Virus record (IMG/VR): IMGVR_UViG_3300046011_000090
Location: 1 to 30,015 of that record
Direction: 5' to 3' (one strand)
Length of the DNA stretch: 30,015 nt
Origin: a virus
A program made the position numbers and the translations under genes. Below, piece after piece: positions 22,180 through 26,103 of this stretch (its first letter is position 1; the number at the start of each line of letters is the position of its first letter). The notes under the pieces were generated by a model. It worked only from the letters and a program-made list of their open reading frames with translations, made no database searches and had not been told where the DNA came from.

Positions 22180-23100
22180 ATGTCAAATCGTTATTTAGGT
22201 GGATTCATCTCAGCGACTTATAACCCGCTATTAGTTCCTAATGCGCCTACCATTGGTACGGCAAGCCCTGTCTCTGCTACATCCTTGTCAATTGCTTTTA
22301 CAGCCCCAAGTAATGTGGGTGGTAGTGCAATCACGAGTTATACCGCTATAGCCAAAAGAACATCTGATGGTGTTTTGTTCACCGCTTCTGGTGCGTCTTC
22401 ACCAATTACTGTTACAGGTCTGACTGCGGTTGCGTTTACTGTGACTGTAGTTGCGGTAAATGCGTATGGGCCAAGCACACCAAGTGCGGCTAGTAATTCT
22501 GTAACACCTGCTTTGCCTATTGGTTCTGCTTATGAAGGTGGCTTCTATGCAGGACAAATCTCAACTGCTGGTAACGGGATTGCAGATTACAACCTAGTTG
22601 TTGGGCCCGTGGCTTCTGCGCAAAACACTTCAGTACAATGGAAAACTACACAAACCGATACAGCAGGAACTTCATCAGTTATTGATGGCCCCACCAATAG
22701 CGCAAACATGAATAACGCTAGCCATCCAGCGGCGCAGTTCTGTGAAGGCTTAACTATTGGCGGCTTTAGCGATTGGTATATGCCAGCAAAAAATGAACTT
22801 GAAGTTTGTTATTTTAACCTAAAGCCATCGACTAACAATAACGATACATCATCTGGAACAAATACTAACGCTGTGCCTAGTAGAGGTAGTAATTACACAA
22901 CAGGTAATCCAGCACAAACTACCGCTTCGGCATTTATTTTTTCTACTGGCGCAGAAGCGTTCATAGCAAATCTTTATTGGTCTAGTACTGGAGTGCCTAT
23001 AAAATACGCATGGTCGCAGGCTTTTAATATCGGAAGTCAAGGCTATGGCTATAAGAACAGCTCTTACCGAGTTCGTGCCATCCGCCGTGTAGCAGTCTAA
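22180..23100 (+). CDS. FN3 plus DUF1566/C-type-lectin-like receptor-binding protein, copy 1
   Basis: 306 residues. About 18-110 form a fibronectin type III domain (APTIGTASPVSATSLSIAFT, then ITVTGLTAVAFTVTVVAVNA). About 113-306 resemble DUF1566/C-type-lectin-fold domains: GGFSDWYMPAKNELEV, YWSST, and a C-terminal VRAIRRVAV. This fold presents variable loops in phage and bacterial receptor-binding proteins. The next gene is a paralogue. In the last 42 residues the two copies align without gaps and differ in an alternating pattern. The ribosome-binding site is AAGGA. It probably sits on the tail and binds the host. Confidence 0.75.
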   Translation: MSNRYLGGFISATYNPLLVPNAPTIGTASPVSATSLSIAFTAPSNVGGSAITSYTAIAKRTSDGVLFTASGASSPITVTGLTAVAFTVTVVAVNAYGPSTPSAASNSVTPALPIGSAYEGGFYAGQISTAGNGIADYNLVVGPVASAQNTSVQWKTTQTDTAGTSSVIDGPTNSANMNNASHPAAQFCEGLTIGGFSDWYMPAKNELEVCYFNLKPSTNNNDTSSGTNTNAVPSRGSNYTTGNPAQTTASAFIFSTGAEAFIANLYWSSTGVPIKYAWSQAFNIGSQGYGYKNSSYRVRAIRRVAV

Positions 23101-23108
23101 GGAAACAT

Positions 23109-24038
23109 ATGCCTAATTATTCTGGAGTTTGGACACTCTCTCAACAAGCACAAGCTAAAGCGGCTAATAACTGGCCTGCGCCTCCTGATGCGCCCACGAT
23201 TGGGACTGCTACGGCTACAAGCTCAACTACGGCTACAGTTGCTTTTACAGCACCTGCAAATCTTGGGAATCCCGCAATAGTAACTTATACAGCCACATCA
23301 AGCCCTAGTGGTTTAACAGGTACTGGGACATCCCCAATCACAGTAAGTGGGTTAACTGCGGCAACTTCTTATACATTTACAGTAACAGCTACAAATGCTT
23401 CTGGCACAGGGCCAGCAAGTGCGGCTAGTAATAGCATTACAACTTTATATACCATTGGTCAGGCTTTGGGCGGTGGTTACTATGCGGGTCAGATTGGCGT
23501 TAGCGGTGTAGCTACCCACAATTTAGTTGTTGGCCCTGTATCTTCCGCACAAAACACTAGCATAGCATATAAAAACGCAAGTACAGCAACCTCTGGCGCA
23601 GATAGCGTAATTGATGGCCCTCAAAATACTGCCGACATGGTAGCTGATGGTAGTTCTACTGTTTACCCAGCGGCTCACTTTTGCAATGACTTGGTAATTG
23701 GTGGTTATAGTGATTGGTATATGCCAGCCAAAAACGAGTTGGAAGTTTGCTACTACAACTTAAAACCCACAACAACAAACAACCAAGAGTCTTCAGGAGT
23801 AAATGCTAACGCTATCCCCCCAAGAGCAAGCCCCTATACATTAAGCACCCCTGCACAAACTTCTGCTACAAATTTTAGAGACACTGGGGCAGAAGATTTT
23901 ATTGCTACTCCGTATTGGACTAGTACAGAATCCAACGCATTGGGCGCATGGAGACAACGATTTAATACAGGACTTCAAGACTACGACTATAAGAGTTCTA
24001 GTACGTATGTCCGAGCCATTCGCAGAGTAGCAGTTTAA
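23109..24038 (+). CDS. FN3 plus DUF1566/C-type-lectin-like receptor-binding protein, copy 2
   Basis: 309 residues, same architecture as its neighbour: an FN3 domain (about 27-115) and a lectin-like domain (about 118-309). The domain has GGYSDWYMPAKNELEV, YWTSTESN, and the identical ending VRAIRRVAV. More than half of the residues of the second domain match copy 1 by eye, and the DNA shares short identical runs with synonymous differences between them. It is therefore an old tandem duplication rather than a recent one. The N-terminus (MPNYSGVWTLSQQAQAKA) differs from copy 1, suggesting different attachment. Confidence 0.75.
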   Translation: MPNYSGVWTLSQQAQAKAANNWPAPPDAPTIGTATATSSTTATVAFTAPANLGNPAIVTYTATSSPSGLTGTGTSPITVSGLTAATSYTFTVTATNASGTGPASAASNSITTLYTIGQALGGGYYAGQIGVSGVATHNLVVGPVSSAQNTSIAYKNASTATSGADSVIDGPQNTADMVADGSSTVYPAAHFCNDLVIGGYSDWYMPAKNELEVCYYNLKPTTTNNQESSGVNANAIPPRASPYTLSTPAQTSATNFRDTGAEDFIATPYWTSTESNALGAWRQRFNTGLQDYDYKSSSTYVRAIRRVAV

Positions 24039-24056: not shown

Positions 24057-24503
24057 ATGTACATTTGCATAACAGAAGTAGACGCAGTAACTAAAATAGT
24101 CTGCACAGCCGAGCCACAACGCACAGGCCCATCAATGCCAGCTATTAAAGGCTGGACTCATATTTGGCACGACAGTTCAACTTGGCCTGTTAGCACAGCA
24201 CCTGATGGCACATATCTTCGTGCGCCCAAGTATTACGGCACTTGCGATGCAGACGCTGACTTAAACATTGCGGGTGTTCTGCAAGTCTTAACAGAAGCAG
24301 AATTTAATGCCGCCAAAGTTGCCGAGCATGAGGCTCGTAAGCCTTACCCATCATGGATTGGCTACTTGGACACAATGACTTGGGCTGCACCAGTAGCAAG
24401 ACCTGCTGATGCCGTAATCAATGGCGGTAATGTACGCTATCAATGGGATGAAGCTACAGTTAGCTGGATTGCACAGCCCTCTCTATCACAAGAATCCGAA
24501 TGA
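24057..24503 (+). CDS. tail-associated protein with KPYPSW motif
   Basis: 148 residues with a good AAGGAG site. The N-terminus (MYICITEVDAVTKIVC) is followed by HIWHDSSTWPV and YYGTCDADAD. Near the end, KPYPSWIGYLDTMTWAAPV and YQWDEATVSWIAQP form a Trp-rich pair common in small proteins of the tail regions of aquatic phages. The family role is unknown; fibre assembly or a minor tail component is likely from position. It overlaps the sulfotransferase start by 4 bases. Confidence 0.65.
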   Translation: MYICITEVDAVTKIVCTAEPQRTGPSMPAIKGWTHIWHDSSTWPVSTAPDGTYLRAPKYYGTCDADADLNIAGVLQVLTEAEFNAAKVAEHEARKPYPSWIGYLDTMTWAAPVARPADAVINGGNVRYQWDEATVSWIAQPSLSQESE

Positions 24504-25321
24504 AAGAGTTTTTCTTTATCTCTGGTTTGCCAAGGTCAGGGTCTACCCTGCTCTCGGCTATCTTGCGTCAGAACCCTGAGTTCTATGCAGATATTTCCTC
24601 GCCAGTATTGGGATTGGTGGCATCTACCATCAATGTTATTACTGGAAGTGAAAGCAATCACCTGATAGATGAAGACAGACGCAAGCAAATACTGAAAGAC
24701 ATATTTGAGGCTTACTACAAAGCAGTCACCCCCAAAGTAGTGTTTGACACTAGCAGGGGATGGACTGCTAAAACATCTTTGCTGAAAGACCTATACCCAC
24801 AGACTAAGATTATCTGCTGTGTACGTGATTTGCCTTGGATACTAGACAGTTTTGAGCGTATTGCTGCCAAGAACTCTTTGTATGGTGCAAGCCTAACAGA
24901 CGATGAGTCACGGCAGACAGTCACCACAAGGTGTGATGCTTTGATGGATGTGAAGAAAGAAGGCCAAGTGGTCAAGCCTTATTACTTCTTAGAAGAAGGC
25001 TTACTGTTAAACCCCGACATGATTATGTTGGTGGAATATGAATCTTTATGTAAACAGCCTGAGAGCGTAATGCGTGAGATTTATGGGTTTATTGGCAAAC
25101 CTTATTACGAACACGATTACAAGAATGTCGAGTATGACAACGAGGTGTATGACAAAGCCTTAAACATGAAAAGTCTGCATACAGTTAGAAAAGAAGTGAC
25201 ATGGCAAGAGCGTCCATCTATACTTCCAAAATCCGTATGGGAAAAGTATAATGGCAAGGAGTTCTGGCGTACACCTGCACCAGAGTTTTCAATCAAACAA
25301 CTTTATAAGGTTAAAGGATGA
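24500..25321 (+). CDS. sulfotransferase family protein
   Basis: 273 residues. GLPRSGSTLL (9-18) is the 5'-phosphosulfate-binding loop of PAPS-dependent sulfotransferases. R109 and S117 in CVRDLPWILDSFER lie exactly 8 residues apart, the spacing of the 3'-phosphate-binding Arg and Ser of this fold. The rest (LVEYESLCKQPESVMREIYGF) follows the usual Sulfotransferase_3 pattern. It would transfer sulfate from PAPS to an unknown acceptor, perhaps a carbohydrate or protein. It overlaps the genes on both sides by 4 bases, so it is probably co-translated with the next, PAPS-making-like gene. Confidence 0.85.
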   Translation: MKEFFFISGLPRSGSTLLSAILRQNPEFYADISSPVLGLVASTINVITGSESNHLIDEDRRKQILKDIFEAYYKAVTPKVVFDTSRGWTAKTSLLKDLYPQTKIICCVRDLPWILDSFERIAAKNSLYGASLTDDESRQTVTTRCDALMDVKKEGQVVKPYYFLEEGLLLNPDMIMLVEYESLCKQPESVMREIYGFIGKPYYEHDYKNVEYDNEVYDKALNMKSLHTVRKEVTWQERPSILPKSVWEKYNGKEFWRTPAPEFSIKQLYKVKG

Positions 25322-26103
25322 AACGCATATTAGTTATGGGTTTACCTAATGCTGGTAAAACTTATCTTGCACAGCATATTCTTGACCACTTGCAAAGCAA
25401 CCATAAAACAGTCATGTGGCTAAACGCTGATGACGTTCGTAAACAATTTAATGATTGGGACTTTTCCCATGAAGGACGTATTCGCCAGAGTTTGCGGATG
25501 CGTGACCTAGCCGACAGTTACGATGTAGATTATGTTATTTGTGACTTTGTAGCCCCTCTAGTTGAGATGCGTAACAACTTTAAGGCAGATTGGACTGTCT
25601 GGGTTGATACCATTGACAAGGGTAGGTTTGAGGACACAAATAAGATATTTGTTGCACCAGAGCAGTATGACTTTAGGATTACTGAGCAAAAGGCTGAGAA
25701 GTGGGGTGAGTTCATTGCTGCTCACATCCTAGATGACAGAAAGCGTCCTGTCTTTGATTGGCAGAAAGAAACTGTCCAGATGCTTGGCAGATGGCAACCT
25801 TGGCACGAAGGCCATCGTAAGTTGTTTGAAAGAGCCTTGGCTAAAACTGGTCAGGTAGTCATTCAGATTAGAGATTGTCAGGGTTGGAACGGCTCAAACC
25901 CATTTGCTGCCACTCAAGTTACAAACTTTATCAAGCGTGATTTAGACCCTTTATATCAAGGTCAGTACGAGATACAACTTGTACCTAATGTGGTCAACAT
26001 CACATATGGCAGGGATGTAGGTTACAAGATTGAGCAAGAATCTTTTGACGATGCTACTCACGCTATCTCAGCAACCAAGATACGAAAACAAATGGGTGTC
26101 TAA
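25318..26103 (+). CDS. APS-kinase-like and HxGH nucleotidylyltransferase fusion
   Basis: 261 residues, two domains. The N-terminal domain (1-145) is like adenylylsulfate kinase: Walker A GLPNAGKT (8-15), LNADDVRKQFND (35-46), then DWDFSHEGRIRQSLRMRDLA, matching the DNVR...GFS..DR..N.R pattern, and WVDTIDKGRFEDTN. The C-terminal domain (about 153-261) has GRWQPWHEGH (HxGH at 163-166), GRDVGYKIEQ and the closing ISATKIR (250-256), the two signatures of nucleotidylyltransferases such as NMN adenylyltransferase and ATP sulfurylase. At about 110 residues it is smaller than usual ATP sulfurylase domains. Together they could make APS and then PAPS for the adjacent sulfotransferase; an NAD-related role is the main alternative. 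Confidence 0.8.
   Translation: MKRILVMGLPNAGKTYLAQHILDHLQSNHKTVMWLNADDVRKQFNDWDFSHEGRIRQSLRMRDLADSYDVDYVICDFVAPLVEMRNNFKADWTVWVDTIDKGRFEDTNKIFVAPEQYDFRITEQKAEKWGEFIAAHILDDRKRPVFDWQKETVQMLGRWQPWHEGHRKLFERALAKTGQVVIQIRDCQGWNGSNPFAATQVTNFIKRDLDPLYQGQYEIQLVPNVVNITYGRDVGYKIEQESFDDATHAISATKIRKQMGV

Follow-up and report, generated by a model that had tools for sequence, protein, structure and literature searches.

Among the described enzymes of sulfate activation, the animal PAPS synthases (PAPSS1/2) and the fungal and bacterial Sat-APS kinase fusions combine an APS-kinase fold with an adenylyltransferase of the HxGH superfamily, and in PAPSS the kinase comes first. In viruses, cysC genes have been reported as assimilatory and not tied to a sulfotransferase (PMC9529941), and sulfotransferases have been described in cyanophages and OM43 phages, where their function was called unclear (PMC10580990). 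The window analysed here, which is the whole 30,015-base record of a virus with an SU10-type portal according to profile search, holds a sulfotransferase gene (ST) overlapping the gene for a kinase-nucleotidyltransferase fusion (KN). KN resembles PAPSS in joining an APS-kinase fold to an HxGH-superfamily domain in the same order, and its proposed product is PAPS as well.

The gene pair and its protein domains

The following features were delimited in the window:

24500..25321, + strand: ST, predicted PAPS-type sulfotransferase, 273 aa (PF13469 and PF00685 over cut-off; phrog_27463, 1e-49)
24524..24547, + strand: GLPRSGST, 5'-phosphosulfate loop of ST, residues 9-16
24824..24850, + strand: R109...S117, 3'-phosphate-binding motif of ST, spacing eight
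25318..26103, + strand: KN, kinase-nucleotidyltransferase fusion, 261 aa (open frame, profile matches, AlphaFold2 pLDDT 92.3)
25318..25737, + strand: APS-kinase-like domain, KN residues 1-140 (PF01583 over cut-off; structural matches)
25339..25362, + strand: P-loop GLPNAGKT, KN residues 8-15 (from sequence)
25762..26100, + strand: NT, small HxGH-superfamily nucleotidyltransferase, KN residues 149-261 (NadM-like by sequence)
25786..25815, + strand: GRWQPWHEGH, nucleotide-binding motif, KN residues 157-166 (G, R, Q, P, H, G and H invariant in 28 members)
26005..26025, + strand: YGRDVGY, family motif (G, R, V and final Y invariant in 28 members)
26065..26085, + strand: ISATKIR, KN residues 250-256 (I, S, A and final R invariant in 28 members)

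Both frames are open on the + strand and overlap by 4 bases, and the start of ST is in turn overlapped by the last 4 bases of an upstream gene (24057-24503), which is preceded by genes for adhesin-like proteins that show fn3 and Lcl_C domains in profile search. Lysis genes follow slightly beyond the cassette. The first-pass annotation had described the pair with its 4-base overlap and the motifs GLPRSGST, R109/S117, GLPNAGKT, HxGH and ISATKIR, all of which were confirmed together with their coordinates. Relatives in viruses number over 599 for KN and 174 for ST, and the gene pair is thus not a product of chance. The adhesin-like genes before the cassette are two paralogues (22180-24038, with fn3 plus Lcl_C in 23109-24038) that differ in number and type among close relatives, some of which have repeat-rich proteins instead. 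The same annotation had also listed a third sulfur-linked gene at position 933. This gene (933-1799) encodes a PAPS-reductase-like PP-loop protein next to a DUF1376 replication-type gene, and matches phrog_424 (4e-45), but its Pfam score of 18.9 bits is below the cut-off of 22.5, it lies more than 22 kb from ST and KN, and nothing indicates that it is part of the cassette.

ST exceeds the cut-offs of both Sulfotransfer_3 (PF13469; E 7e-18, 66.1 bits, cut-off 27) and Sulfotransfer_1 (PF00685; 5e-11). The GLPRSGST loop is kept in 9 diverse phage STs, with GLPRSGTT as the SAR86 version, and the R...S pattern for the 3'-phosphate is present in 7 of the 10 divergent STs checked. With profile and both PAPS motifs in place, ST is a predicted PAPS-dependent sulfotransferase, and, as its 3'-phosphate-binding motif is intact, a 3'-phosphorylated donor would be needed. 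Its closest solved relatives, the protein-tyrosine sulfotransferases, match only at E about 0.001, so the target of ST cannot be read from them.

The first half of KN scores 34.7 bits against Pfam APS_kinase (PF01583, cut-off 21.1) and misses the equivalog level of TIGR00455 in NCBIfam (22.7 vs 138.7 bits). An AlphaFold2 model of KN was built from 35 relatives, and each of the 30 best structural matches to its kinase part is an APS kinase or includes one (Z 15.8-18.6). The first-pass assignment of an APS-kinase-like domain is borne out by this fold, the best match reaching Z 18.6 (rmsd 2.2, 142 residues) against Z 14.9 for gluconate kinase as the next family, and by the key residues D38, R41, F/Y49 and R54 of the motifs D38/R41 and DFS..GR (48-54). 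In an alignment with canonical CysC-like kinases of SAR11, D38, R41 and R54 do not vary and position 49 is F or Y; we take these four to be the catalytic Asp plus the Arg, aromatic and Arg residues of the APS site. Sequence matches to APS kinases run from KN residue 4 to around residue 90, where they end because the lid region of KN is shorter and different, and the family carries its own signature, GRF(E/D)DTN.

The second half, NT, belongs to a family with the motifs PN(I/V), YGRxVGY and ISATxIR, the first Y and the second G of YGRDVGY being nearly invariant across its 28 members. It weakly matches archaeal NMN adenylyltransferases, reaching 29.9 bits against NadM where the NCBIfam equivalog cut-off is 181.2; NadM structures are its best profile matches (3e-10), and the NadM motifs GRxQPxHxGH and ISxTxxR are present. 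When NT was modelled alone (pLDDT 87.3), PPAT (Z 10.2) tied with NadM (Z 9.8), and the fold is for this reason uninformative on the substrate. An ATP sulfurylase is first met at rank 41 of the Foldseek matches of NT (E 0.07), so its absence from the VIA list proves nothing. Compared with NadM, NT is shorter overall (110 vs 137 residues) and has about 25 residues fewer between aligned conserved blocks (18 vs 43 in MJ0541), in a stretch that is presumably the part binding NMN in NadM. The refuting case named by the first-pass annotation, in which this domain would model clearly as an adenylyltransferase for NMN or another nucleotide, is only half realised: PPAT and NadM tie in the model, and the part holding NMN is missing. 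A Sat domain (PF01747) was not found in NT by Pfam search, and its sequence lacks the QxRN/TRN sulfate motif, having GRWQPWHEGH where Sat has TRNxPHxxH; in profile comparison with six SAR11 Sat proteins the HxGH region alone aligned, with a probability of 21%.

Gene neighbourhoods in phages and bacteria

Further phages had been proposed as the place to look for the same pair, and among 112 ST relatives with at least 75% identity and at least 450 bases downstream, ST is directly followed by KN in 92, by a separate gene for an APS-kinase-like protein of about 145 residues in 19, and by neither in 1, which means that the same ST pairs with two different kinase genes. ST and KN are nevertheless separable in phages. 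KN copies without this ST adjoin other sulfotransferases (L064, L071, L080 and others), sugar-nucleotide genes (L042) or genes that look by eye like QueD/QueE (L072). For KN clusters lacking the adjacent ST, our own ST profile detected an ST in the flanking DNA retrieved (at most about 5 kb) in 20 of 47; for want of a background rate, this count does not serve as proof. Five phages of Stenotrophomonas, Xanthomonas and Clavibacter carry KN and gave no ST in tblastn, and no ST was detected in the Sanovirus and Salvovirus phages with KN.

Several further arrangements were seen in the phage loci. In phage Bhz60 (L003:5559-6735), an annotated NADAR gene lies directly upstream of KN and overlaps it, and ST was not detected there. 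A 589-residue phage protein (L062:2846-4612) has a sulfotransferase front and a long rear that appears glycosyltransferase-like by eye, and relatives of about 590 residues with such a front occur in L042, L046-L048, L051, L052, L054 and L055; in addition, L042 encodes a cytidylyltransferase, a PfkB kinase and an epimerase, a set that recalls ADP-heptose synthesis. In several phages KN is closely preceded by a further kinase copy that is degenerate, with a damaged P-loop (L200:572-1015, L213:4490-4996 and L223:2046-2492).

KN also occurs in bacterial genomes. It is fused in Rhodospirillaceae and Bradyrhizobium, where it adjoins genes of PF13469 (Sulfotransfer_3) and PF14269 (arylsulfotransferase) (L240, L242) or two TPR-sulfotransferases (L244); Bradyrhizobium and other alphaproteobacteria with KN carry CysD as well. 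In SAR11 and SAR86, kinase and NT are mostly two genes, usually abutting or overlapping: across 80 loci they are split in 60, fused in 14, represented by the kinase only in 3, and unresolved in 3.

Among 91 SAR86-order genomes, kinase and NT are both present in 47 and PF13469 in 48, with the pair and ST together in 44, the pair only in 3, ST only in 4 and neither in 40 (Fisher 1.3e-17, uncorrected for kinship, within one order whose genomes are not phylogenetically independent). An ST-kinase-NT operon was found in 20 of the 47 pair-positive genomes, the distance from ST to kinase being mostly 15-30 bases and the overlap between kinase and NT 8 bases in most regions read. ATP sulfurylase (PF01747) occurs in only one of the 91 genomes and CysD exceeded its cut-off in none of them; nearly all ST-bearing SAR86 are therefore without a recognised route to APS. 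No other clear APS-kinase-like gene was found in SAR86, the remaining matches being at 1e-6 or weaker and one a duplicate fragment. The phage ST and the SAR86 STs are only remotely alike, and consequently the association is not simply one mobile cassette. One SAR86-order genome (G041) encodes a 717-residue protein (L343:451-2601) composed of a pyruvate-kinase barrel, PUA_2 and ATP sulfurylase.

SAR11 has been described as having aprBA and as lacking cysDNCHIJ and sat (PMC5069961). In our set of 78 SAR11 genomes, NT was found in 60 and the kinase in 52. CysD is present in 0 of the 60 NT-positive genomes vs 6 of the 18 NT-negative ones (p 7e-5); a strong ST accompanies CysD in five of these six, and their APS kinase lies inside a frame of 613-639 residues, as expected for CysNC. 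Sat occurs in 6 genomes, five of them NT-positive, and several of these genes adjoin sulfotransferase or polysaccharide-type genes; at three loci (L334, L335, L336) a pyruvate-kinase-like gene directly follows Sat. NT together with a strong ST, in the absence of Sat and CysD, was found in 29 genomes. A correlation between NT and ST was not found in SAR11, where ST is present in 32 of 60 NT-positive vs 12 of 18 NT-negative genomes (p 0.42), and 7 ST-positive genomes have neither NT, Sat nor CysD. Eight genomes have NT and no matching kinase (G160, G164, G173, G179, G180, G184, G196, G203); G164 and G173 have another APS-kinase-like gene elsewhere. At two SAR11 loci the genes downstream of the kinase-NT pair are, in order, one of the TenA family, a single short ORF and aprB-aprA, the latter over the cut-offs of TIGR02060 and TIGR02061.

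A possible route to PAPS and its alternatives

According to the explanation we prefer, ST and KN would form a translationally coupled sulfation cassette, in which NT would make APS from ATP and sulfate, the kinase would turn APS into PAPS by phosphorylating its 3'-OH, and ST would transfer the sulfate from PAPS to a target. The likeliest target, at a guess, would be a host-surface glycan or a virion adhesin, as the cassette stands directly behind tail-adhesin genes. That the cassette serves sulfation, as the first-pass annotation proposed, is very probable, an association of ST with an APS-kinase-like enzyme being seen in phages and bacteria alike. The kinase probably acts on APS; its distance from TIGR00455 and its different lid region speak against this assignment, and the 111 of 112 close STs that precede KN or a lone kinase speak for the APS/PAPS reading.

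The role of NT is more finely balanced. It could act as an ATP sulfurylase, a proposal we see as standing about midway between acceptance and rejection, and the same even weight is given to the broader reading in which KN makes PAPS, NT is a non-canonical ATP sulfurylase and KN corresponds to PAPS synthase in function. Support comes from SAR86, where the pair tracks ST and Sat and CysD are near absent, and from SAR11, where NT and CysD exclude each other; two SAR11 pairs adjoin aprBA, whose product is APS, and NT is shortened in the stretch that carries NMN in NadM. On the other side stand the lack of a Sat domain and of QxRN, and the position of NadM as the nearest relative in sequence. The proposed route as a whole is also opposed by the uncorrelated NT and ST of SAR11, with its kinase-free NT genomes and its ST genomes that lack NT, Sat and CysD, by the Sanovirus and Salvovirus KN with no detectable ST, and by the NADAR gene of Bhz60. 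If NT were an ATP sulfurylase, it would serve both STs and AprBA in SAR11. A still wider proposal falls just short of an even call: NT would be a third class of ATP sulfurylase, of about 120 residues, serving sulfation in SAR86, SAR11 and alphaproteobacteria and carried by phages in fusion with its APS kinase beside a sulfotransferase, and it may release sulfate and ATP from AprBA-made APS in SAR11.

The 19 phage loci with a lone kinase beside the same ST indicate that the kinase alone can suffice, and they fit an alternative in which host-supplied APS is converted to PAPS by the kinase and NT does another job, for example adenylating or cytidylating a phosphate compound of glycan synthesis. 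The CysD of KN-bearing Bradyrhizobium and other alphaproteobacteria agrees with a host supply, as do the NadM-like sequence of NT and the sugar-nucleotide genes beside some phage KN genes with another job. We nevertheless regard this alternative as rather unlikely, since ST-bearing SAR86 have no recognised source of APS except the pair, and kinase and NT stay together in phages, SAR11, SAR86 and alphaproteobacteria, whether as neighbouring, overlapping or fused genes. It is improbable that KN belongs to NAD salvage, as a nicotinamide riboside kinase plus NMN adenylyltransferase (NadR with swapped domains) next to an incidental ST: NMN adenylyltransferases are indeed the best relatives of NT, and NADAR overlaps KN in Bhz60, but the kinase resembles APS kinases and not NR kinases, NT is without the about 25 residues found in NadM, and the linkage to ST is tight in phages and SAR86.

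In the synthesis of O-methyl phosphoramidate in Campylobacter, an APS-kinase homologue phosphorylates CDP-phosphoramidate. A donor other than PAPS could similarly arise if NT joined a nucleotide to a small group, the kinase added a 3'-phosphate and the "sulfotransferase" moved the group, which would account for an NT unlike any ATP sulfurylase beside APS-kinase and sulfotransferase folds. However, the aprBA link and the CysD exclusion in SAR11 point to APS itself, and we find such a donor hard to credit. The usual description of viral cysC, an auxiliary gene for assimilatory sulfate reduction, is the one given for viral CysC with 109-135 modelled residues (PMC9529941), and the PAPS-reductase-like gene at 933 would suit it. 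It was rejected as the main reading of KN and appears very improbable, because the kinase is coupled to ST and the pair typically occurs in bacteria that have no known sulfate activation.

Comparison with known systems

In the open papers searched, no report was found of the ST-kinase pair, of the NT family or a NadM-like ATP sulfurylase, of a link between NT and sulfation in SAR86, or of biochemistry on KN. A PAPS-making and sulfation module with an adenylyltransferase outside the known ATP sulfurylase families would be new; confirmed activity of NT would establish an enzyme class of its own. SAR11 and SAR86 rank among the most numerous bacteria of the sea. A small ATP sulfurylase that has so far escaped notice, if real, would explain the PAPS supply of their many sulfotransferases and perhaps the fate of the APS produced by AprBA.

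Three cyanophage sulfotransferases examined are 29-32% identical to ST, and no kinase gene was found beside them. The canonical ST-CysC-Sat clusters of SAR11 (L331, L336) resemble the cassette in keeping a transferase near an APS kinase and an ATP sulfurylase, but they contain true Sat and CysC-like kinases. With NadM, the archaeal NMN adenylyltransferase, NT shares its fold and both GRxQPxHxGH and ISxTxxR, and differs in the shortened NMN stretch and in the motif YGRxVGY. The likeness to animal PAPS synthase noted by the first-pass annotation does not extend to homology: unlike PAPSS and the Sat fusions, KN has neither PF01747 nor PUA_2, its adenylyltransferase part is NadM-like and has about 113 residues, and, given also the missing QxRN and the poor alignment with Sat, KN as a true PAPSS homologue was rejected. 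The halves being separate genes in most SAR11 and SAR86, the fusion apparently arose independently of PAPSS. Finally, the KN kinase has the fold, the P-loop and D38/R41/F49/R54 in common with CysC (PF01583), including viral cysC (PMC9529941), and differs in its shortened lid, its GRF(E/D)DTN signature and scores far below the equivalog cut-offs. For phages, a gene usually filed under sulfate assimilation would become part of a sulfation module.
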